This document shows, piece after piece, positions 10,297-39,778 of a stretch of 64,000 nt of DNA. Within the stretch, counting starts at the first letter, position 1, and the number at the start of each line of letters is the position of its first letter. The position numbers and the translations under genes were made by a program. A model generated the notes under the pieces. It had not been told where the DNA came from and made no database searches. It saw only the letters and a list, made by a program, of their open reading frames with translations. The stretch comes from Marinobacterium litorale DSM 23545 (lineage in GTDB: Bacteria > Pseudomonadota > Gammaproteobacteria > Pseudomonadales > Balneatricaceae): the NCBI RefSeq assembly GCF_000428985.1, contig NZ_AUAZ01000022.1, positions 1 to 64,000 on the forward strand, given 5' to 3'.

Positions 10297-11822
10297 GATC
10301 CACTTTCCTCGCTGGCTTGTTCGGCTTCTTGTTTCGCCTTGGCCTCTTTTTCAGCTTTGGCACGCGCCTTGGCTTCTTTGGCTGCCTTGGCTTTCGCCGC
10401 TTTCTCGGCTTTAAGGCGGGCCTTTTCTTCCGCTTCACGTTCAAGGCGCGCCTTACGCGCCTCCGATAGCGACTTGGTCAGTTCGCCCTTGCGCTCCTGA
10501 ACCCGCTTCGCGCTCAGCTCCCCCTTGGCGAACTGGAAGTAGTGCACCAACGGGATATGGGAGGGACAAACGTAAGCACAGGAGCCACAGAGAATGCAGT
10601 CACGCAAACCAAACTCTTTGGCCCCATCGAAATCATCGCCTTTCGCGTGACGCGCCATCTCCAGGGGCACCAGGCCCATGGGACAGGCGGATACACAGCT
10701 GCCACAGCGTATGCAGGGGGATGCTTCGTTTTTGCTGATCTCGGGTGTCGCCAATGCGAGGATGCCGCTGGCGCCCTTGGTGATCGGGACATCGGCGGTA
10801 CGCAGAATCTGTCCCATCATCGGCCCGCCCATAACGATACGGGCCGGATCTTCGGTCAGTCCGCCACACTGTTCGAGCAGCCAGCTGACGGGTGTGCCCA
10901 GCAGGACTTCGACATTCTGAGGCGCCTCGATACAGGCACCGGAAACAGTGACCAGGCGCGAAATCAGCGGCTGATGTTCGTACAGCGCCTGATGGACGGC
11001 AAAAGCGGTGGCGACGTTATGCACCAGCGCGCCCACGTCGGAGCTGCGGCCGCCAGCCGGCACCTCTTTACCCATGATCGCCTGAATCAGCTGTTTGGCT
11101 GAACCCATTGGGTAGCGGGTCGGGATCGCCTGGATGGTGACGTCATCATAGTTGGCGGCTGCAGCCTGCATGGCCGCAATCGCTTCAGGCTTGTTATCTT
11201 CGATGCCGGCGACGATTCGGCGTGCACCAACCGCACGCTGAATCAGGCGTGCGCCGGAGATGATACCCTCGGCACGTTCGCGCATCAGCATATCGTCACA
11301 GGTCAGGTAGGGTTCGCACTCACTGCCATTCAGGATTAGGGTATCGATCTTCTGCCGGGCGCCGGACTTGAGTTTGAGCGCCGCCGGGAAGGTTGCACCA
11401 CCCAGGCCGACAATACCGGCCTGATCAACCCGGTCCGCAATCTCGCCCGGCTCCAGGGTCATCGGGTCCGCCAGCGGCTCAACCGGGACTGATTCGTCCA
11501 GGCCATCCGGCTCAATGGTGATCGCCTGAGTGGTCAGGCTGGACGGGTGCGGTGCCGTAATCTCGCCAACCGCCGTCACGGTGCCCGATGTCGGAGCATG
11601 CAGTGAGGCGCAGACGTCATCACCGGTCGAGGTGGCCAGTAACTCCCCCTTTTTAACCTGCTGCCCGACTTTAACGACCGGTTGAGCCGGCTTGCCCGCG
11701 TGTTGGCGCAATGGCAGGTTCAGTAGCGGGGGAATTCCCAGTTTTCGTACAGGCTGGCAGGTACTCTGTTCTTTGCGCTCTTCCGCATGAACCCCGCCAC
11801 GAATCTTGAGTTTATTGAACAT
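10293..11822 (-). CDS. rnfC: Rnf electron transport complex subunit C
   Basis: Peripheral NADH-binding subunit, 509 residues, with FMN and two [4Fe-4S] clusters. The glycine-rich GLGGATFPAALKL is the nucleotide site; the ferredoxin motifs CIRCGSCVSACP and CILCGSCAYVCPS lie at about 375-425. After about residue 430 there is an Ala/Lys/Glu-rich charged tail predicted to be coiled coil, a variable feature of proteobacterial RnfC. The start at 11822 is 3 bases from the end of rnfB. Confidence 0.95.
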   Translation of the reverse strand: MFNKLKIRGGVHAEERKEQSTCQPVRKLGIPPLLNLPLRQHAGKPAQPVVKVGQQVKKGELLATSTGDDVCASLHAPTSGTVTAVGEITAPHPSSLTTQAITIEPDGLDESVPVEPLADPMTLEPGEIADRVDQAGIVGLGGATFPAALKLKSGARQKIDTLILNGSECEPYLTCDDMLMRERAEGIISGARLIQRAVGARRIVAGIEDNKPEAIAAMQAAAANYDDVTIQAIPTRYPMGSAKQLIQAIMGKEVPAGGRSSDVGALVHNVATAFAVHQALYEHQPLISRLVTVSGACIEAPQNVEVLLGTPVSWLLEQCGGLTEDPARIVMGGPMMGQILRTADVPITKGASGILALATPEISKNEASPCIRCGSCVSACPMGLVPLEMARHAKGDDFDGAKEFGLRDCILCGSCAYVCPSHIPLVHYFQFAKGELSAKRVQERKGELTKSLSEARKARLEREAEEKARLKAEKAAKAKAAKEAKARAKAEKEAKAKQEAEQASEESGS

Positions 11823-11825
11823 AAC

Positions 11826-12350
11826 TTACGCCGCCGCCGGTTTGGGCCATTGCCAGTTATCGAGGGTTTCCTGTTCCGGATGCATACCGATGCAATCTTC
11901 CGGACAGGCGTCCACACACTTGCCGCAGCCGGTACAGGCATCGGCAAAGACCACATGGATCTGCTTGTTGGCGCCCATGATCGCGTCGGTGGGGCAGACG
12001 CGGTAGCAACGGCAGCATCCGGTACAGAGAGACTCTTCGATAGTGGCTGTCATCGGTTCAGAAGCCATGCCACTCAGGTCCGCATCCACGCCCAGTTTCT
12101 CGGCCAGCTGCTGTGCCAGCGCTCGGCCACCCGGGGGGCAGCAGGTGACTTCAGCTTCGCCATCAACCATCGCCTGGGCCGCACCACTGCATCCCGGGAA
12201 GCCGCATTGCCCGCAATGTGTACCGGGCAGCATGGACTCCACCTCCTTGACGATGGGGTTCTCTTCAACCGCGAAAATCTTATCGGCGTAACCGAGCAGG
12301 AAGCCCAGCGCCAGACCAAGCAGTGTCAGAACAGCAACAGCAGTAACCAT
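11826..12350 (-). CDS. rnfB: Rnf electron transport complex subunit B
   Basis: Ferredoxin-like subunit of 174 residues. An N-terminal transmembrane helix (about 1-25) is followed by a four-cysteine cluster motif (GTHCGQCGFPGC with a later CCPPGG) and two classical [4Fe-4S] motifs, CTGCCRCYRVCP and CTGCGKCVDACP. It passes electrons between RnfC and the membrane flavins or the external ferredoxin. It sits second in the operon, 29 bases after rnfA. Confidence 0.95.
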   Translation of the reverse strand: MVTAVAVLTLLGLALGFLLGYADKIFAVEENPIVKEVESMLPGTHCGQCGFPGCSGAAQAMVDGEAEVTCCPPGGRALAQQLAEKLGVDADLSGMASEPMTATIEESLCTGCCRCYRVCPTDAIMGANKQIHVVFADACTGCGKCVDACPEDCIGMHPEQETLDNWQWPKPAAA

Positions 12351-12379
12351 AGTGTGATTCTCCTTGCTTCAGAGACGGC

Positions 12380-12952
12380 TTAGACCAGGCCGCCAAAACC
12401 CATGAAAATCATCGACAGCAGACCCGCTGTCACAAGACCCACCGGCGTACCGGCAAATGTGGCTGGAACGTCGGACAGCGCCATACGCTCGCGCAGACCG
12501 GCAAAAATAATCAGGACCATAGAGAAGCCCAGGGAAGCGCCGATGCCATAAACCACGCTTTCAATAAAGCTGAGGCCTTCCTGGACGTTGATGAGAGCCA
12601 CGCCCAGCACCGCGCAGTTGGTGGTGATCAGAGGCAGGAAAATACCCAGCGTCTGGTGTAGCATCGGACTGGTTTTTTTCACCATCATCTCGGTGAACTG
12701 AACCACGGCAGCGACCACCAGGATGAATGAAATGATGCGCAGAAATTCAAGACCCAGCGGCTCGAGGATGTAGTACTCCATCAGCCAGCTGCTGACGCTG
12801 GAGAGCGTCAGCACGAAGGTGGTTGCCAGTCCCATACCCGTGGCTGTGCTGAATTTGTTGGACACGCCCATAAGCGGGCACAGCCCCAAGAATTTGACCA
12901 GAACCACGTTATTAACGAGGACTGTTCCGATTAGCAGAGTGATTAACTCCAT
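12380..12952 (-). CDS. rnfA: Rnf electron transport complex subunit A
   Basis: First gene of the rnf operon; integral membrane protein of 190 residues with six hydrophobic segments and the family sequence [20 protein letters not shown]. The frame is open from a TTG at 12961, but the ATG at 12952 has an AGGAG site at the right distance and matches the usual RnfA N-terminus. It is read divergently from nifL from a sigma-54 promoter at 13003-13018, marking this as the nif-regulated Rnf copy. Confidence 0.95.
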
Positions 12953-13002
12953 AGCGTGCAACTCCTTCAGGACACCCGTTGCGGATAACTCGTAACCGGT
13001 GC

Positions 13003-13018
13003 TGCACCAAGCATGCCA
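13003..13018 (-). promoter_or_regulatory. Sigma-54 promoter of the rnf operon
   Basis: On the minus strand TGGCATGCTTGGTGCA has GG and GC separated by exactly 10 bases, with a single mismatch to the TTGC part of the consensus. It lies 50 bases before the rnfA start and has NifA-type sites upstream at 13080 and 13122. Confidence 0.8.
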
Positions 13019-13079
13019 TGGGTAAATAATTGATTTAAAAGGATATGATGGGTAGATGGATCTGTTTGAATGGCGACAT

Positions 13080-13095
13080 TGTCGTTTTTGTAACA
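13080..13095. promoter_or_regulatory. NifA upstream activator site (TGT-N10-ACA)
   Basis: TGTCGTTTTTGTAACA matches the NifA consensus exactly. It lies about 60 bases from the rnfA sigma-54 promoter and about 95 bases from the nifL one, so it could serve both directions. Confidence 0.7.
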
Positions 13096-13121
13096 GATCG
13101 GTGCACGTGTGCCCCTTTTAG

Positions 13122-13137
13122 TGTCATATTGGTTACA
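13122..13137. promoter_or_regulatory. Second NifA upstream activator site
   Basis: TGTCATATTGGTTACA is a second exact TGT-N10-ACA site, 42 bases from the first (four helical turns, so both are on the same DNA face). It is about 50 bases from the nifL promoter and 105 from the rnfA one. Confidence 0.7.
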
Positions 13138-13188
13138 CAGGTGTCGCCGGACAGGTACTGAAAGCGACAAAAAGGGTTTCCCCATCAA

Positions 13189-13204
13189 TGGCGCGGTTAT
13201 TGCT
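13189..13204 (+). promoter_or_regulatory. Sigma-54 promoter of nifLA
   Basis: TGGCGCGGTTATTGCT is a full match to the -24/-12 consensus (GG-N10-GC), 39 bases before the nifL start. With the two NifA sites upstream this predicts autoactivation of nifLA. I looked for NtrC sites (GCAC-N7-GTGC) in 12953-13243 and did not find a good one. Confidence 0.85.
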
Positions 13205-13231
13205 TGACACCCCCCTATACCCGTCACCTAA

Positions 13232-14824
<1,593 letters not shown>

Positions 14825-32661: not shown

Positions 32662-33412
32662 TCGTAACGACGGCGATCTCACGCCGGTCGCCGATTGTCG
32701 TTTTTGTCGTTACAAGACCGATCTGCTGCTATCCGGGCGCTGTGTGCCCGGAGATATCTGCATTGCTGCACATAGTGGGCGGCAGATCGACCGCTTCCTG
32801 CGCATCAACCCGCACCTGGCGATCTACTACCTGCAGGACTCCTTCTGGGAAAGGCGCGCCATCGCCGTTCGCTACGCGCCCCTTGAAGCACTGGACAAGC
32901 TGATCCGCGACCCGGACGAAGCCGTCCGTCGTGCTGTGGCTTACCGTTTGCCCCGCGAAAAGCTGCTCGCGCTGGTAGAGGACGAAGACCGGGAAGTTCG
33001 CATCACCGTGGCTGACCGTATTCCGCCTGAACATCTGGAAAAGCTGGCGGACGACCCCGACTACCTGGTCCGTGCCTATGTGACCCAGCGCCTGCCGCAG
33101 GGCCGCCTGTTCCGCATGATCCGTGATCCCGATCGGCAGGTCCGTAAACTGGTCGCCCGCCGTCTGCCGGAAGTCAGCCTGGGGCTGATGATGAACGACC
33201 CGGAAGCGGAAGTACGCCGCATAGTGGCGGATCGTCTTGAAGGCGACGCTGTTGTGCCCATGCTGAAGGATGATGACTGGACCGTGCGTCTGGCCGCCGC
33301 TCTTGATGCACCGCTTGAAGCACTGGAAGCACTCAGGGATGATCCTGATCCAGAGGTTCGTGATCTGGTTGCAACTCGGCTGAAAGATGCAGGGGAGAAG
33401 GGTAGCGACTGA
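32651..33412 (+). CDS. 4Fe4S-containing leucine-rich-repeat-variant protein (LRV)
   Basis: The 253-residue protein has an N-terminal four-cysteine cluster site (CRFC, then CVPGDIC) followed by about eight 24-residue LRV repeats with the D-x-D/E-x-x-V-R pattern (for example DPDEAVRRAVAYRLP and DDPDYLVRAYVTQRLP). The Azotobacter orthologue has a known helical superhelix structure but no known function; a scaffold role near nitrogenase assembly is inferred. ATG 32651 is preferred to TTG 32645. It is the last gene before the inserted block. Confidence 0.92.
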   Translation: MTTDRNDGDLTPVADCRFCRYKTDLLLSGRCVPGDICIAAHSGRQIDRFLRINPHLAIYYLQDSFWERRAIAVRYAPLEALDKLIRDPDEAVRRAVAYRLPREKLLALVEDEDREVRITVADRIPPEHLEKLADDPDYLVRAYVTQRLPQGRLFRMIRDPDRQVRKLVARRLPEVSLGLMMNDPEAEVRRIVADRLEGDAVVPMLKDDDWTVRLAAALDAPLEALEALRDDPDPEVRDLVATRLKDAGEKGSD

Positions 33413-33990
33413 GCTGCCTTCTTCTTTTGCGTTTTAGCTCCCTTTAAATCTGGTTATACCTTCGCCTTCTGTCTTCGTAAGCCAGTGCCGGTTTCGCCGC
33501 GTGGCGAGTCAAGGGACTTGTGCGGACAAGTCCCTTAACAATCCCAAGCCGCCCCTCAGTTTGACCCGCTCCGCGGGTTTCCCTGCGCGTCTCGCCTGAA
33601 AGAGCGGGACAGGCAACTCGCTCCTTTGTCGCTCAAACATCCTGTCCCTTGTTTCTCTTTCAGCCTGCGATGCTCGGCTGCACTGAAGGGGAGTAGGGCT
33701 GCGGTTAGCTTGATGGGGCGCGATTCCTTCTTGCTCGTTTTGTCATTGGCTTATGCGTATTTTTGACTGGAAACGCGGTGTAAATTGGTCCAGTATCAAG
33801 GCATTAAGGAACTGCCGGTGCGTGATAGTGCGCACGGCGCTGCATCAAAACGCGCATGCTTGTTTTCATCGGAAGAGAATGGCTGTGGTACCTAGATTTC
33901 CCTTTCTCTTCAATTGATTAGCGTAGCTGTCCGGAACTCAGCACTGCGTGTGAATGCGCATGCGCAGTATTAAAACTGTTAAGCTCTATT
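33413..33990. other. Non-coding, highly structured left flank of the inserted block
   Basis: No gene is visible. It holds three strong inverted repeats: AAGGGACTTGT/ACAAGTCCCTT with a 4-base loop (33511-33536), ACCCGC/GCGGGT (33564-33578), and a long composite hairpin in which CTGAAAGAG pairs with CTCTTTCAG and GGGACAGG with CCTGTCCC (33596-33663). From about 33740 the sequence turns AT-richer. GTTAAGC at 33978-33984 fits the right core of an attC site, but no left core is recognisable before it. The composition differs from the flanking nif genes. Confidence 0.6.
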
Positions 33991-34007
33991 GTTGCGTGGT
34001 GCGCAAC
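33991..34007. promoter_or_regulatory. Probable higBA operator
   Basis: GTTGCG-TGGTG-CGCAAC, a perfect 6-bp inverted repeat 16 bases before higB, where HigA or the HigBA complex would bind for autorepression. Confidence 0.5.
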
Positions 34008-34023
34008 GTGCTAGCATTCCCTC

Positions 34024-34302
34024 ATGATTAAATCATTCCGTCACAAAGGACTGAAACGGTTCTACTCGACTGGCAACACGTCTGGCATACAGCCTGATCA
34101 CGCCAAGAAACTGCGTATGCAGCTGGCTGCTCTGGATACAGCCACTTCGGTGGAAGACATGGACATTCCTGGTTTCCGGCTTCATCCATTGAAGGGCAAA
34201 GACAAAGGACGGTGGTCGATTCGGGTCAACGGAAACTGGCGCATGACGTTCGAATTTCAGGACGGCAACGCCTACATTCTTGATTATGAGGATTATCACT
34301 AA
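34024..34302 (+). CDS. higB: HigB-type toxin (RelE/ParE fold)
   Basis: Ribosome-dependent mRNA interferase of 92 residues: MIKSFRHKGLKRFYSTGN at the N-terminus, LHPLKGKDKGRWSIRVNGNWRM in the core and DYEDYH at the end, all typical of HigB. Toxin before antitoxin is the normal higBA order, and the stop overlaps the higA start by one base. HigBA is a common passenger of integron cassettes. Confidence 0.92.
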   Translation: MIKSFRHKGLKRFYSTGNTSGIQPDHAKKLRMQLAALDTATSVEDMDIPGFRLHPLKGKDKGRWSIRVNGNWRMTFEFQDGNAYILDYEDYH

Positions 34303-34595
34303 TGACTATGCATAATCCGCCGCATCCTGGTGAATTCATTCGGGAGGTGTACCTGGAGCCTTTCGGTATCAGTTCCCGTCAGCTTGCTTCCAGTCTGGGG
34401 GTCTCTCCCTCCACTTTGTCTCGGCTGCTCAAAGGGGATAGTGGTATTAGCCCGGAAATGTCGCTTCGGCTATCCAAGGTTCTCGGACGTTCTCCTGAGA
34501 GTTGGTTGGCGATGCAGGATATGTACGATCTATGGGTGGCCCGCAACACGGTCAACCTGGATGGAATCCATCCCTTGGACTTCGATGCAGCTTAA
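34302..34595 (+). CDS. higA: HigA-type antitoxin
   Basis: XRE-family helix-turn-helix protein of 97 residues with HPGEFIREVYLEPFGIS and QLASSLGVSPSTLSRLLKG. It neutralises HigB and represses the operon through the inverted repeat at 33991. Its TAA stop lies inside the left core (GCTTAAC) of the attC-like site that follows, as is common at cassette ends. Confidence 0.92.
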   Translation: MTMHNPPHPGEFIREVYLEPFGISSRQLASSLGVSPSTLSRLLKGDSGISPEMSLRLSKVLGRSPESWLAMQDMYDLWVARNTVNLDGIHPLDFDAA

Positions 34596-34661
34596 CCAGT
34601 GGCTGTTGCCGGACGCGCCTCCGCTGGCACTCCGGCACGCCGCAAAGCCAGGGCGTTAAAT
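34590..34661 (+). mobile_element. attC-like recombination site 1
   Basis: Left core GCTTAAC (fits RYYYAAC) and right core GTTAAAT (fits GTTRRRY) are 72 bases apart outside to outside. Inside, TGGCT pairs with AGCCA and TGCCGG with CCGGCA, so the single strand can fold as attC sites do. It ends the higBA unit. Confidence 0.65.
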
Positions 34662-34915
34662 CAGTAGTGATACCGGAGTTGGGCGATAAGCAAAGCGTCA
34701 TCCGTGATTTTGTAAACTATTCGGTGTTCTTCATTGATCCGGCGAGACCAGTATCCGGCGAGGCTGTGTTTGAGGGGCTCTGGTTTGCCAACACCTTCGC
34801 AGGGCTCTCGCTTGATCTCTTTGATCAGCTTGTTGATTCGGTTAAGAATCTTTTTGTCGGTTTTCTGCCAGTACAGATAGTCTTCCCAGGCGTGCTCGGA
34901 GAAGATGAGTTTCAT
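34661..34915 (-). CDS. yoeB: YoeB-type toxin
   Basis: Txe/YoeB-family ribosome-dependent mRNA endonuclease, 84 residues. The sequence MKLIFSEHAWEDYLYWQ, the core GKPEPLKHSLAGYWSRRI and the C-terminal LRYHY with its catalytic histidine are all present. It overlaps yefM by 4 bases. The pair runs against the direction of its neighbours, which is possible because toxin-antitoxin cassettes carry their own promoter. Confidence 0.93.
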   Translation of the reverse strand: MKLIFSEHAWEDYLYWQKTDKKILNRINKLIKEIKREPCEGVGKPEPLKHSLAGYWSRRINEEHRIVYKITDDALLIAQLRYHY

Positions 34916-35163
34916 TCAAGAAGTTCCTTTTCTTGACCATCGCCTTGCTCCAGCTCGGCAACGGATTCCAGCAAACGCCGTGCGTTTTTTGGTGCGCGCA
35001 GAAGGTATGCAGTTTCTTGCAGCGCCTCGTAGTCTTCCAGGGAGATCATTACTACTGACGGCGATTTGCTCCGGGTGATGATGACAGGTGAATGGTCTTC
35101 ACAGACCTGCTCCATGGTTTTTGCTAGATTGGTTCTGGCGGCTGTGTAGCTAATGGCATCCAT
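34912..35163 (-). CDS. yefM: YefM-type antitoxin
   Basis: Phd/YefM-family antitoxin of 83 residues: DAISYTAARTNLAKTMEQV and VMISLEDYEALQETAYLL. It binds YoeB and represses its own promoter. ATG 35163 begins the conserved part; the frame open to 35226 would enter the operator and attC region and is not used. Confidence 0.93.
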   Translation of the reverse strand: MDAISYTAARTNLAKTMEQVCEDHSPVIITRSKSPSVVMISLEDYEALQETAYLLRAPKNARRLLESVAELEQGDGQEKELLE

Positions 35164-35172
35164 AAGGTTGTT

Positions 35173-35202
35173 CCTGTACAGGATTCTGTTCATGGACAGA
35201 AT
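35173..35202. promoter_or_regulatory. Probable YefM operator
   Basis: Two adjacent palindromes: CCTGTACAGG (35173-35182), containing the TGTACA core that YefM binds in E. coli, and ATTCTGT-TCATGG-ACAGAAT (35183-35202). They lie directly upstream of yefM. Confidence 0.65.
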
Positions 35203-35217
35203 ACCGTACGCCACAGA

Positions 35218-35295
35218 ATTTAACAATCGGCTGCACAGCGACCGACTTTCCGCCGCTTCATGACTCCAAACCGGCGCGTGAGCTGGACGTTATTT
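35218..35295 (+). mobile_element. attC-like recombination site 2
   Basis: Left core ATTTAAC fits the consensus; right core GTTATTT keeps GTT but deviates in two bases. Length 78 bases. Its interior shares a GACCGACTTTCCGCC stretch with site 3, and GGCTGCAC can pair imperfectly with the facing GTGAGCT. It ends the yefM-yoeB unit. Confidence 0.5.
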
Positions 35296-35311
35296 CTTTT
35301 GAGGTATAACT

Positions 35312-35794
35312 GTGCTAAGCGATAGACAGAAAAAGTATCGAGACCGCGCTAACCGTGCGCGACGAGAGCTTCTTAAAGAACAGGAGAAATTTCGCGCGAT
35401 TTCGGATGGCTCAGGGAAACGCTACCGGGTGTGCGTTGACTTTGTGCTTAGCGGTGCTCCAGAAAAAGCAGTCGAGTTCTTGAACTGGTTCGAGACAGAG
35501 TTTCCGGATGACGTTGGTGAGCCCGCGTTTCTATTATATGCTGCGTTGGCCTACTACCGGGTGGGGGCTTTGGGGAAAGCGCAGGGATACCTACTGGATA
35601 CGATGTTAAGCAACATATACCTACTTCCCTATTTGTTTTCGCGACCAATTCCCAAACAAGACATGTGGCACTCATCTAATTGGGCACAGCCAGACTACAT
35701 CGAGAACATTAAAGAACTTCTCGAAGGGCCAACTAGTCAAGAGCGGCAGTGGTTCCAAGAGCGGTTCGAGGATGAACGCTTCACGAGCATTTGA
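35312..35794 (+). CDS. Unknown cassette protein, TPR-like
   Basis: A 160-residue protein starting at GTG 35312 behind GAGGT. It has a basic helical N-terminus (DRQKKYRDRANRARRELLKEQ) and a helical middle (GEPAFLLYAALAYYRVGALGKAQGYLLD) that resembles a tetratricopeptide pair. I do not recognise a family. It lies alone between attC-like sites 2 and 3, as a one-gene cassette would. Confidence 0.65.
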   Translation: MLSDRQKKYRDRANRARRELLKEQEKFRAISDGSGKRYRVCVDFVLSGAPEKAVEFLNWFETEFPDDVGEPAFLLYAALAYYRVGALGKAQGYLLDTMLSNIYLLPYLFSRPIPKQDMWHSSNWAQPDYIENIKELLEGPTSQERQWFQERFEDERFTSI

Positions 35795-35905
35795 AGCAAG
35801 TACATAGAAACATTTCACGCATTACAGCATGTGAAAGATTTGGATTCCCGCGGTCGTATTCTTAAGGGGTGGCGGGACTATGTTTCTTCGTCTCGTGCAA
35901 ACGAG

Positions 35906-35983
35906 ATATAACCAGTGGCAGCACGCTGACCGCTTTTCCGCCATGCTGGGGCTCTGAATCGGCACATGTGCCAAGCGTTAGAG
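35906..35983 (+). mobile_element. attC-like recombination site 3
   Basis: Left core ATATAAC and right core GTTAGAG each differ from consensus at one position; length 78 bases, the same as site 2. It begins AACCAGTGGC like site 1 and shares GACCGCTTTTCCGCC with site 2. TGGCA pairs with TGCCA and CAGCA with TGCTG. Confidence 0.6.
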
Positions 35984-36000
35984 AAATTTAGTGATGGAAA

Positions 36001-36330
36001 ATGACCCACAAGAATCTTCATAAATTATGTGACATTGCTACGGAAGCGCATACTCGTTTTCAGAATGAGATAAAGGATATTGATCCGATCGTTGGGGTCA
36101 GCAAAAGCATGCGCGCTAGCGGTGTACCTGCGGACGTGATGACGATAGATTGCCTGAAGAATGGAAAAAGAATCATATTAATATTACATGACGATAAACC
36201 AGATACTATTAACTACCAATTCGCTTGGCGCGACAGAGATTTTGATAATGAATTTACAGAAATATCCTTTGATGATCTTACGGAGAGTGTTTTTTTAGAT
36301 TGGATGAAACGCTATTTTGTCGAGCACTAG
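36001..36330 (+). CDS. Unknown cassette protein
   Basis: A 109-residue acidic protein (NLHKLCDIATEAHTRFQNEI, later IILILHDDKPDTINYQF). Its DNA is clearly AT-richer than the nif genes, with runs such as ATCATATTAATATTACATG. ATG 36001 lies 18 bases after the attC-like site 3 core. No family recognised; a C-terminal FDDLTESVFLDWMKRYF amphipathic part is the only visible feature. Confidence 0.6.
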   Translation: MTHKNLHKLCDIATEAHTRFQNEIKDIDPIVGVSKSMRASGVPADVMTIDCLKNGKRIILILHDDKPDTINYQFAWRDRDFDNEFTEISFDDLTESVFLDWMKRYFVEH

Positions 36331-36381
36331 ACGACGAGCGGCTGGTGAAAGTTATAGGGTAATGGAGGCACAGAAAGTAGC

Positions 36382-37071
36382 ATGAAGACCATAGGACTGA
36401 TCGGTGGGATGAGCTGGGAGAGCACAGTCGGCTACTACAGAGAAATTAACGAACGGGTCAAGAACTCCCTGGGCGGGCTTCATTCGGCGAAAATCGTTCT
36501 CCACAGTGTCGATTTTGATCCGATTGAAAAGCTCCAGCATAAGGGGGATTGGGCGGGCACGGCTGAGATACTTATCGGCGCTGCCAAAAGTGTAGAGGCC
36601 GCTGGTGCTGATTTTGTGCTGATCTGTACTAACACCATGCATAAGGTCGCGCCAGATATTGAGCGGAGTATTAACATACCCCTCCTGCATATCGCGGATG
36701 CTACGGCTGAACTGCTTGTGAAGGACGGGGTTAAAAAGGTGGGGCTGCTAGGCACGGCGTTTACCATGGAGCAGGATTTTTACAAAGGCCGCCTGTCTGA
36801 AGAGTATGGCCTTGAAGTTGTCACACCCGGTGAGGCGGATCGAAAGCGGGTGCATGAAATAATCTATAACGAGCTTTGCCTGGGGACTATCAATCCCGAG
36901 TCTCGGCAAGAGTACCTGCGTATTGTTAACGAGCTGTCAAAATCCGGCGCTGATGCAGTTATTCTGGGGTGTACTGAAATCGGTATGTTAATCACGCAGG
37001 CCCATACTGATATTCTACTGTATGATACGACAGCCATCCATGCCGCAAAGGCGGTAGAGTGGGCAATATAG
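36382..37071 (+). CDS. Aspartate/glutamate racemase family protein
   Basis: A 229-residue protein of the YgeA/RacX type, a cofactor-independent racemase. Both catalytic cysteines are present, in LICTNTMHKVAP (about 80) and VILGCTEIGMLI (about 196), and the N-terminal IGLIGGMSWESTVGYY is typical. Substrate range of the group is broad (aspartate, lysine, arginine and others), so no symbol is given. D-amino-acid production can matter for peptidoglycan or biofilm, by inference. Confidence 0.88.
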   Translation: MKTIGLIGGMSWESTVGYYREINERVKNSLGGLHSAKIVLHSVDFDPIEKLQHKGDWAGTAEILIGAAKSVEAAGADFVLICTNTMHKVAPDIERSINIPLLHIADATAELLVKDGVKKVGLLGTAFTMEQDFYKGRLSEEYGLEVVTPGEADRKRVHEIIYNELCLGTINPESRQEYLRIVNELSKSGADAVILGCTEIGMLITQAHTDILLYDTTAIHAAKAVEWAI

Positions 37072-37147
37072 CTATTAAATCAAGGAGGGATTTAAGCTTG
37101 GCTAAAATTGTCCGCCGAGTCGAGCGTTATATTCCATGGAGGGAAAT

Positions 37148-37573
37148 ATGGAAATAATAGCGATCATTCTCCTCATACCGTTTGTCGGATTGGCGGTACT
37201 GCATCTGTATTGGGCGCTCGGCGGGACGTTCGGAATGTCAGCAGCCCTCCCTGAGATAGATGGGGCACCCGTCTTCAGGCCTGGAGCAGCGGCAACGATT
37301 GCGGTTGCATTCGTGCTCACTGGCTTCGCCCTGATAGCGTTCGTTCTCGGGTTCGGGGCCAGTTACGCGCCGGCTCTTACTCCGTATGCCGCTTTTCTCG
37401 GCTTCGCTGTTGGAGGCGTACTCGTCCTGCGGGCGGTTGGCGAGTTCAAGTATGTTGGTTTTTTCAAGCGAGTGAAGGGCTCGAAGTTCGCAGCGTATGA
37501 CAGCTGGCTGTTTTCGCCTTTTTGCTTGTTAGCTGGCGGGGCGTTTTTAGCGCTGGCGGCGGGCAGGATATAA
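37148..37573 (+). CDS. DUF3995 membrane protein
   Basis: A 141-residue protein with four hydrophobic segments (about 1-22, 46-68, 74-98, 117-138) and the DUF3995 sequence HLYWALGG near residue 20 plus FKRVKGSKFAAYDSWLFSPFC. Function unknown. ATG 37148 follows GGAGGG; ATG 37136 is in frame but lacks a site. DUF3995 genes are frequent in integron arrays as I recall, consistent with the setting. Confidence 0.75.
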   Translation: MEIIAIILLIPFVGLAVLHLYWALGGTFGMSAALPEIDGAPVFRPGAAATIAVAFVLTGFALIAFVLGFGASYAPALTPYAAFLGFAVGGVLVLRAVGEFKYVGFFKRVKGSKFAAYDSWLFSPFCLLAGGAFLALAAGRI

Positions 37574-37611
37574 CCCTTAGGGCAGGTGGCAGAACTTATG
37601 ATTGCCAAAAC

Positions 37612-38148
37612 ATGAAATTTTCGACGTATAGCGAATCTGATCGACAGGAAATAGAGTCCCTGTTTACCCGAACGTTCTCAGACTCAGAAGGTGAGGCTGA
37701 GGGGAAGCTGATAGGGAATTTGGTCCACGAGTTGATGAACGGTACCAAAGCGGAAGACATTTTCGGGTTCGTCGCTACCGAACAAGGGCATATTGTCGGT
37801 TGTATCTTTTTCACCCGGTTATCGTTCGGCTGCTCCGTAAACGCTTTTATGTTGTCACCGGTTGCCGTTGTTACAGGTCATCAGGGCAAAGGCGTTGGCC
37901 AAGCGCTGATTAATTTTGGTATCGAGCGTTTACGTGAGCAGGACGTCGAACTCATTTTTACCTATGGTGATCCGAACTTCTATTCGAAGGTGGGTTTTAA
38001 GCACGTACCTCAAGAGGTTGCGGCTGCGCCGTTTAAACTAACTTATCCAGAGGGCTGGCTGGGACAGTCGTTGGATGGAAGCCGTCTTGAAACCCCACTT
38101 GGACAGGCTTGTTGCGTTGACGCATTCAATGATCTTCAGTATTGGTAA
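37612..38148 (+). CDS. GNAT family N-acetyltransferase
   Basis: Protein of 178 residues with the acetyl-CoA loop VTGHQGKGVGQALINFGIERL (motif A, Q/R-x-x-G-x-G/A) at about 88-108 and FYSKVGFKHVP later, the YhbS-like arrangement. The acyl acceptor is unknown. The frame is open from 37522, but that would overlap the DUF3995 gene; ATG 37612 starts the domain. It is the last gene before the nifE control region. Confidence 0.85.
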   Translation: MKFSTYSESDRQEIESLFTRTFSDSEGEAEGKLIGNLVHELMNGTKAEDIFGFVATEQGHIVGCIFFTRLSFGCSVNAFMLSPVAVVTGHQGKGVGQALINFGIERLREQDVELIFTYGDPNFYSKVGFKHVPQEVAAAPFKLTYPEGWLGQSLDGSRLETPLGQACCVDAFNDLQYW

Positions 38149-38226
38149 AACTGTCCGCACGACCTGCATACACCCCGATTGTCACTAACCTGCCAGAGCA
38201 CCTCACATCCCCGCGATTGTCACCTT

Positions 38227-38242
38227 TGTAGGCTTTGTAACA
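38227..38242. promoter_or_regulatory. NifA upstream activator site before nifE
   Basis: TGTAGGCTTTGTAACA is an exact TGT-N10-ACA site 45 bases before the nifE -24 element. Confidence 0.65.
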
Positions 38243-38286
38243 CCTCTCCTCATCGCTACAGCGTCGTAAAAACAATAACTTATCAG

Positions 38287-38302
38287 TGGCATACCGGTTG
38301 CA
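38287..38302 (+). promoter_or_regulatory. Sigma-54 promoter of the nifENX operon
   Basis: TGGCATACCGGTTGCA is a full -24/-12 match, 51 bases before the nifE ATG. It gives nifENX NifA-dependent transcription independent of the nifHDK operon and of the inserted block. Confidence 0.88.
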
Positions 38303-38353
38303 GTACAGCTTTGTAGATTGAGTTCCAAAGCGACTTCACAACCGGAGGGTCCA

Positions 38354-39778
38354 ATGAAAGCCAAGGATATTGCCGAGCTGCTCGACGAGCCAGCCTGCGA
38401 GCACAACAAGAAAGAGAAATCCGGTTGTGCTAAGCCCAAGCCTGGCGCGTCGGCCGGTGGTTGTGCGTTTGATGGCGCGCAGATTGCGCTGCTGCCCATC
38501 GCTGATGTGGCCCATATTGTTCACGGCCCTATCGCCTGTGCCGGTAGCTCCTGGGATAACCGGGGTACCCGTTCCAGCGGTCCGACACTTTACCGGGTGG
38601 GGATGACCACCGATCTGACCGAGCAGGATGTGATCATGGGGCGGGGCGAAAAGCGTCTGTTCCACTCCATCAAGCAGGCGATCGACAGCTACAGCCCCAA
38701 TGCGGTTTTTGTCTACAACACCTGTGTGCCGGCGCTGATCGGTGATGATGTGGATGCGGTCTGCAAAGCGGCCACGGAGCGCTGGGGCGTGCCGGTGGTG
38801 CCGGTGGATGGTGCCGGTTTTTATGGCACCAAAAACCTGGGTAACCGTATCGCCGGTGAGGCGATGTTCAAGCATGTGATCGGTACCCGCGACCCTGACC
38901 CGATTCCCGATTCAGTGCAGCGCGAAGGCATCAAAATCCACGATGTGAACCTGGTCGGTGAATACAACATCGCCGGTGAGTTCTGGCATGTGTTGCCGCT
39001 GCTCGATGAGTTGGGTATCCGCGTGCTCTGCACTCTGTCCGGCGATGCCCGCTTCCGCGAAGTGCAGACCATGCACAAAGCTGAATGCACCATGATGGTC
39101 TGCTCCAAGGCGATGGTGAACGTCGCCCGCAAGATGGAAGACAAGTACGGCATTCCCTGGTTTGAGGGCAGCTTCTACGGCATCACCGATACCTCCCAGG
39201 CGCTGCGTGATTTCGCCCGTCTGATCGGCGATCCGGACCTGACCGCCCGCACCGAGGCAGTGATCGAGCGTGAAGAAGCCCGTGTCCGCGCTCAGCTTGA
39301 GCCCTGGCGCGAGCGCCTCGGCGGCAAGCGCGTTCTGCTCTACACCGGCGGCGTGAAGTCCTGGTCGGTGGTCTCCGCTCTGCAGGATCTGGGTATGAAG
39401 GTGGTCGCCACCGGTACCAAGAAGTCCACCGAGGAGGATAAGGCCCGGATCCGCGAGCTGATGGGTGAAGACACCAAGATGATCGAGGAGGGCGGTGCCA
39501 AGGAGCTGATCAATATCGTCCATGAGTACAAGGCCGACATCCTGATTGCCGGTGGTCGTAACCTCTACACCGCACTCAAGGCGCGTATCCCGTTCCTCGA
39601 TATCAACCAGGAACGTGAATTCGGCTACGCCGGATACACCGGGATGCTCGAGCTGGTGCGTCAACTGGCGCTGACCATCGAAAGCCCGATCTGGCCGGCT
39701 GTTCGTGAACCGGCTCCCTGGGGCGAACGCGACGACAGCATCGAACCGCTCAACCTCAATGAGGTGTCCAATGGCTGA
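38354..39778 (+). CDS. nifE: FeMo-co scaffold protein NifE
   Basis: NifD paralogue of 474 residues; with NifN it forms the scaffold on which NifB-co is matured to FeMo-co. Cluster cysteines lie in [19 protein letters not shown] and [12 protein letters not shown], and [10 protein letters not shown] is characteristic. ATG 38354 follows GGAGG and gives the normal N-terminus; the frame open from 38318 has no site. It overlaps nifN by 8 bases. Confidence 0.97.

Follow-up and report, generated by a model that had tools for sequence, protein, structure and literature searches.

Cassette arrays without an integrase are already known as clusters of attC sites lacking integron integrases (CALINs). By default, IntegronFinder 2 calls a CALIN from at least two attC sites per cluster (available part of PMC9024848). 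Three routes to such arrays are given by Cury et al., as cited in the portion of PMC8618304 at hand: off-target insertion, loss of the integrase gene intI and rearrangement. Integrase-less clusters are usually counted by their attC sites alone, and hence off-target insertion and intI loss are hard to tell apart. Here we describe an integrase-less array with an attI region. It lies in a stretch of 64,000 nucleotides of Marinobacterium litorale DSM 23545 (NZ_AUAZ01000022.1, positions 1 to 64,000; the window), in the 4.9-kb gap between the genes lrv and nifE of the nif region. The genome (G000; G, C and L numbers denote genomes, contigs and loci) is a 4.38-Mb draft assembly of 64 contigs, and the window is on contig C21.

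The locus resembles a CALIN in having at least two attC sites and no integrase nearby, but differs from one in the attI region before its first cassette. With sedentary chromosomal integrons it shares attI, attC cassettes, toxin-antitoxin cassettes and a chromosomal place. Unlike these, it has no intI and three attC cassettes, and it is one of four attI-block loci in a genome in which no intact intI was found. The Delta-attI cassettes of mobile class 1 and 2 integrons are similar in that attI stands away from the intI-attI junction; according to the accessible sections of PMC12901181, most of them are short stretches of attI that follow a cassette gene within an array. The window type, in contrast, is an attI region of 250 to 370 bp before cassettes at separate chromosomal loci.

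We read the locus as a small integron without its integrase gene, in which an attI region is followed by three attC cassettes in the right order and orientation (probability about 0.85, judged from sequence). Because the attI region precedes the first cassette, this description fits better than that of an attC cluster alone. From left to right, the gap holds a 220-bp repeat, the 250-bp attI region, the three attC cassettes, four more genes and the nifE promoter. The first-pass annotation had placed an integron-type cassette array at 33978..38160 and suggested that an attC cluster had landed in the nif regulon. Integron-type cassettes in the nif region are confirmed by the attC scores and by cassette ends that recur in other genomes, and the start given, base 33978, coincides with the G at which attI is presumably cut. 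The array needs redrawing in two respects: the attI region at 33732-33978 also belongs to it, making it more than an attC cluster, and attC sites are confined to 33978-35983.

The attC sites were scored with a purpose-built covariance model, not that of IntegronFinder. It drew on arrays adjoining intI elsewhere in the order and the genus, with the window sites excluded. Similarity removal reduced 113 candidates to 87; 12 of these were removed by hand (doubtful or too window-like, including two near-copies), sites longer than 85 bases were omitted, and 48 were used. The model structure covaries (score 0.394, against 0.157 in shuffles).

Exactly three matches were found in the window, all on the plus strand: attC1 at 34590..34661 (72 bases; 37.6 bits, E 7.6e-7), attC2 at 35218..35295 (78 bases; 44.5 bits, E 1.6e-8) and attC3 at 35906..35983 (78 bases; 37.2 bits, E 9.7e-7). 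Thus the three attC-like sites of 72, 78 and 78 bases noticed in the first pass hold at their places, with 37.2-44.5 bits, and these clustered sites exceed the two of the CALIN default (37-44 bits in our own model). With default filters there is no fourth site in the window up to E 10. The covariance check proposed for 33400-38350 put the three sites far above background: with filters off, the next best score there is 7.1 bits, and the control lrv-nifE loci of four named species (L010-L013, 82.9 kb) give no match up to E 5. Plain single-strand folds of the sites are not unusually stable (z from -0.59 to +1.06 in six folds), which supports neither side, and hence the argument for these sites comes from the covariance model and from the cassette boundaries rather than from folding energy. 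Rfam gave three weak matches in the window, none of them relevant.

Cassette boundaries were compared by searching the DNA of 33978-38160 against 244 genomes of the order. For cassettes 1 and 2, homologous units in other genomes end at the predicted cassette ends. Cassette 1 (33979..34655, plus strand) carries HigB (34024-34302) and HigA (34302-34595) ahead of attC1. Its homology begins at base 33978, the attI/attC cut base, in three genomes (G067, G225 and G155; 86-93% identity), and to the left of the cassette these genomes have unrelated sequence. The homology reaches the end of attC in G067 and G225; in G155 similarity is lost inside the site. A further copy in G206 (92%) begins at a contig end and runs through attC.

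Cassette 2 (34656..35289) carries YoeB (34661-34915) and YefM (34912-35163) on the minus strand and attC2 on the plus strand. Units of 90-93% identity whose ends match those of cassette 2 occur in G143, G197 and G176, and the G176 copy lies 8 kb from a stop-free intI on the same contig. Close copies of attC2 alone stand within about 5 kb of intI in G060, G246, G012 and G128. The two toxin-antitoxin pairs described earlier, one on the opposite strand, are real by family matches, with HigB/HigA on plus and YoeB/YefM on minus. These two cassettes may slow the loss of the array. Cassette 3 (35290..35977, plus strand) holds a 160-residue reading frame (35312-35794), for which no family was found, and attC3; no homologue of it appeared among the matches listed. 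Each of the three cassettes is closed by an attC site, and all attC sites are on the plus strand, as in a complete integron. As a separate observation, the HigBA cassette of the window sits directly on an attI of another class (class A) in another genus (G225:C11, L109:5973-6667), on a contig without an intI match at E 1e-60 or better.

The attI region (33732..33978, plus strand; class B) has its core, GCGCATGCGCAGTATTAAAA, at 33956-33975 and is presumably cut after G33978. Two other Marinobacterium genomes (G004:C30 and G007:C7, loci L060 and L059) have the same block, flanked there by an intact intI on one side and by the cassettes of that integron on the other. The window block matches these class-B copies over 203-206 bp at 73-79% identity and keeps the 20-base core at 20 of 20 positions, where no such match is expected. 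Both intI genes are far over the TIGR02249 cut-off and free of stops, and their products, IntI-B, are 45-47% identical to the other IntI proteins compared. In G004 a motif CTGT-N8-ACAG, which we take to be a LexA-type box, lies between the attI block and intI.

Ten aligned attI copies end near a common point and diverge beyond it. When 28 block copies are aligned at the right end, GTT marks the cut in 23 of them, and the sequence beyond is unrelated. The consensus end, ATTAAAATGTTA, is similar to the core of attI2, given as AATAAAATGTTRRRY in the part of PMC12901181 available to us. Given the homology to attI of intact integrons and the sharp end at G/TTA, a predicted attI site is adjoining the first cassette. 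The block is repeated in the same genome on C14, C19 and C35, making four places with the window, and on C14 and C19 it directly precedes other attC cassettes. A consensus scan of 33400-38360 for the cassette promoter Pc, restricted to the sigma70 type, found one site, at 35508, against 4.2 expected, and none in the attI region.

The integrase gene itself is missing from the locus. No integron integrase match was found on contig C21, as the first pass had said of the window, nor in 33301-38400 on closer search. Across the draft genome TIGR02249 has eight weak matches, none over the cut-off; in the genus, five of eight genomes have matches over it, one of these (G002) only with internal stops. 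The genome-wide search for intI and further attC sites that had been called for returned at least seven attC loci (C46, C14, C24, C5, C19, C21 and C13), a lower bound with 150 of 997 candidates scored, but no intact intI. What it did return is a fragment of 70 residues at C13:96322-96531 (TIGR02249 2.3e-20). This fragment represents a third IntI class, sharing 67% identity with IntI of G004:C8 over 66 residues, and is followed by a gene with an attC site of 24.4 bits (about 97539-97626 of C13, L064). The pair is a further integron relic in this genome. A fragment on C36 was not counted as IntI, in our judgement, since it matches only the C-terminal part shared with other tyrosine recombinases. 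Since the draft genome yielded no intact intI, we expect a static array, barring an integrase that is newly acquired or acts in trans.

The array could have arisen as follows. A class-B integron, of the kind whose intact IntI is kept in the two other Marinobacterium genomes, would once have stood at the locus or been carried there. Its IntI would have captured cassettes at attI, by recombination of attI with attC through the folded attC strand. Later, the divergent intI would have disappeared along with the left portion of attI; today 16 bases separate what remains of attI from the 220-bp repeat. The intI may have been lost in place, or an attI-cassette piece may have been transported here, perhaps via the 220-bp repeat.

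Several observations weigh against an integron that lost its integrase gene. A tblastn search with eight Marinobacterium IntI proteins finds no remnant of intI at the locus: the best match in the window has E 0.24, none lies in 33301-38400, and the short matches were rejected as remnants. Loss at the locus is thus inferred and not seen, because no remnant is detectable. In a draft assembly of 64 contigs, intI could also lie outside the assembled sequence; yet contig C21 spans the locus. The attI region also lacks its left part, the LexA-box end of other copies, and the 220-bp repeat stands in its place. The window attI ends on AAAACTGTTA, one base longer than the consensus AAAATGTTA, with the extra base between core and cut, and in 5 of the 28 aligned block copies the cut base is not GTT. 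Its capacity to recombine is predicted from sequence. Finally, the last 2.2 kb of the block (36001-38148, four genes) has no detectable attC.

The alternative that survives best is a rearrangement, in which attI and cassettes were severed from an intI at another site of the genome and relocated to the gap, for instance when copies of the 220-bp repeat recombined. We regard it as a possible but minority explanation. The repeat is strongly structured and forms a separate family (about 220 bp, at 33484..33715). In favour of a rearrangement, it has at least seven further copies in the genome (two on C9, one each on C22, C26, C33, C34 and C56). Among loci L157-L208, the repeat stands beside the attI block only in the window and in G002:C10, and there repeat and block align together over 468 bp (73.5%). 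However, these two loci show no clear likeness in the short spacer that separates repeat from attI, and no second copy of the cassettes is among the matches listed from the same genome. Part of the repeat already adjoins lrv in another Marinobacterium locus (L009), and hence the repeat is probably older than the insert. As a side observation, the two C9 copies are about 0.8 kb apart in inverted orientation.

A less probable alternative is that the 250-bp block is no attI but a separate dispersed element, such as a promoter, a non-coding RNA gene or a mobile unit, that precedes accessory or defence genes and came to lie beside intI by capture. The block is indeed widespread. Of 38 relatives, 9 have it, at 22 places in all; a search from another copy gives 81 places, counted as match rows, in 28 of 116 genomes of the family. 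We examined 42 attI-like places with 1.5 kb on each side (43 rows, one place counted twice), with attC thresholds of up to E 1 in one set and 0.1 in the other. A full-length intI lies within 1.5 kb at only 4 of the 42, so that orphans outnumber intI-bearing places 38 to 4, and 19 of the 42 have no attC. An intI fragment was found at 3 of the 42, two of which (G262 and G288) have a class-A attI. Full intI adjoins the block in G308 and in G254, where the block match is only 33 bp. Many block matches are short; if only the 30 places that match over 120 bp or more are considered, attC is present at 18, a full intI at 3 and an intI fragment at 1. Moreover, the left end is common to seven copies, about 354-380 bp from the cut, although the DNA flanking them differs.

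A separate element is harder to reconcile with the right end and with what follows it. The block stops on GTT at the cut in most copies, as described above. At the 23 places with attC, all 36 matches are downstream on the same strand and none is upstream. Likewise, in 13 longer stretches, three of them without attC, 19 of 19 attC matches are on the strand of the block. The 17 right flanks compared have no sequence in common, which fits an attI whose cassettes change. Sharing among these flanks is limited to a 3-kb stretch in G280 and G279, probably the same chromosomal neighbourhood, to pieces of 35-65 bp in three pairs, and to 359 bp at the far contig ends of C14 and C35. A two-ended transposon was rejected on the same grounds, since the right flanks have no common end and terminal inverted repeats were not seen by eye.

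Off-target insertion is improbable. Here an IntI encoded elsewhere would have inserted single cassettes in succession at a secondary, attG-type site between lrv and nifE and so made a plain CALIN without a platform. It is among the three routes proposed for CALINs (Cury et al., in the available part of PMC8618304), and three attC loci of the same genome (C24, C5 and C46) have no copy of the attI block in a whole-genome search. The attI region to the left of cassette 1 argues against it: this 250-bp region adjoins intact intI elsewhere, and a secondary site would not carry it. Having attI in place therefore largely answers, for the window locus, the question of off-target insertion or lost intI. 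With the attI sequence (about 250 bp, core GCGCATGCGCAGTATTAAAATG/TTA), many other loci can be examined for the same distinction.

That ordinary accessory genes merely acquired attC-like cores by chance is extremely improbable: toxin-antitoxin pairs, acetyltransferase (GNAT) and racemase genes are common accessory genes, but covariance scores, cassette-exact homology elsewhere and zero matches in 82.9 kb of controls refute it.

Returning to the integrase-less integron, we tentatively propose a wider picture. The family may carry a distributed integron, that is, many non-autonomous attI platforms (up to about 370 bp, ending at the cut), each with a short and changing set of cassettes, served in trans by one or a few integrases or left as landing sites. 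The window would be a platform that reached the nif region. This idea, which we hold to be possible but doubtful, is supported by the excess of orphans over intI-bearing places, the common left end of the seven copies and a locus beside a cupin gene, where the attI block occupies the same position in two species (G245 and G044) but is followed by different genes. Should orphan attI sites still acquire cassettes in trans, a single genome could hold several platforms for one enzyme, and integron capacity would have to be counted differently. A 370-bp copy used as query matched 7 of 390 genomes of the order, all in the same family and five near full length.

We also looked for an empty cupin site and for mobility of the attI unit. 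G282:C7 was rejected as an empty site, having a degenerate attI block with other genes behind it. One plasmid matched the unit, pF076 of Pseudomonas aeruginosa (L241:5101-6836). Its stretch closely matches the cupin locus of G245, is cut at attI by a transposase gene and has no attC. Independent plasmid mobility of the unit was rejected, since pF076 shows transfer of a chromosomal stretch and not of the attI unit alone. With two unit copies as queries there was no match in phages or Escherichia coli genomes, and the 20-base attI core has no exact match in viral contigs. The pF076 transposase gene has the same Pfam families as the transposase of L009.

Two further platforms of the M. litorale genome have noteworthy surroundings. 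On C19 (L152:6956-8907), a long attI unit stands directly behind a phage-type integrase gene and is followed by an attC cassette and by a ThsB/TIR-like gene of the Thoeris family (PADLOC 1.1e-67). On C14 (L149:1921-6652), the attI block is followed by two attC sites and by genes with DUF2326/PDC-M68B and NucC-like matches, possibly defence cargo.

In the open-licence literature, including the available parts of PMC9024848, PMC12901181, PMC8618304 and PMC12444791, we found no paper that describes dispersed or orphan attI platforms; in one of the listings, PMC10127599 was the only entry that, by our judgement, deals with integrons. No title among the matches listed there links integrons to a nif cluster, and the only match for Marinobacterium with integron concerns sulfonamides in a river.

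The left neighbour of the array, lrv (32672..33412, plus strand), encodes a leucine-rich-repeat-variant protein with an FeS4 domain (Pfam LRV 1.9e-37, LRV_FeS 4.6e-9). The protein is 91-94% identical to its counterparts in M. mangrovicola, M. lutimaris, M. zhoushanense, M. ramblicola and a Marinobacterium metagenome-assembled genome (MAG). On the right, nifE (38354..39778, plus strand; TIGR01283 4.2e-216) is followed by nifN (TIGR01285 5.1e-173). To the right of the inserted DNA are a TGT-N10-ACA motif (38227..38242, plus strand), which we take to be a NifA-type upstream activator site, and TGGCATACCGGTTGCA (38287..38302, plus strand), presumably a sigma54-type promoter. Sites of both forms precede nifE in all six Marinobacterium loci. 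As these sites lie at 38227-38302, the insert is placed upstream of the predicted nifE promoter, and the array interrupts no nif gene. The insertion was presumably tolerated since nifE retains this promoter of its own.

Comparing the lrv-nifE gap in relatives, as had been recommended, supported an insertion: the gene block of the window is absent from the five other Marinobacterium loci examined. In M. mangrovicola the gap holds a band-7 gene and a second gene, in M. zhoushanense electron transfer flavoprotein (ETF) and oxidoreductase genes, and in M. lutimaris and M. ramblicola reading frames that look similar to each other by eye. The fifth locus, L009 of the MAG CSMAG_1284, has a different relic integron in the same gap (10738-14619). 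A decayed class-A intI on the plus strand (two pieces, TIGR02249 8e-13 and 1e-9) is accompanied by an attI of its own type (attI-A, 13631-13645) and by attC sites on the minus strand (12657-12729 and 11900-11959; 48.1 and 28.2 bits). Its transposase gene adjoins the 220-bp repeat. Window and L009 share sequence up to window position 33576 and again from 38169, with nothing convincing between. The window array and this relic are thus two integron classes in opposite orientation, and the gap before nifE acquired integron DNA at least twice while the nifE promoter was left in place.

The four genes to the right of cassette 3 are all on the plus strand. A 109-residue reading frame (36001..36330) has no accepted family and no attC behind it. 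It is followed by an aspartate/glutamate racemase-like gene (36382..37071; Asp_Glu_race 2.7e-44, TIGR00035 over the cut-off), a DUF3995 unit (37123..37573; DUF3995 6.6e-28) and a GNAT acetyltransferase gene (37600..38148; Acetyltransf_7 4.6e-10). The DUF3995 unit starts at a cassette-type boundary, GCGTTATAT (about 37124-37132). It has no attC score with the filters off, and a degenerate attC sought by eye at 37090-37132 gets no support from the model. G245 has an 84% DNA match over exactly 37123-37573. Because this match covers the exact unit and the same GCGTTATAT stands in front in both genomes, the unit was probably once a cassette whose attC sites have decayed. The DUF3995 protein has matches in 5 of 293 genomes of the order, M. 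litorale itself included.

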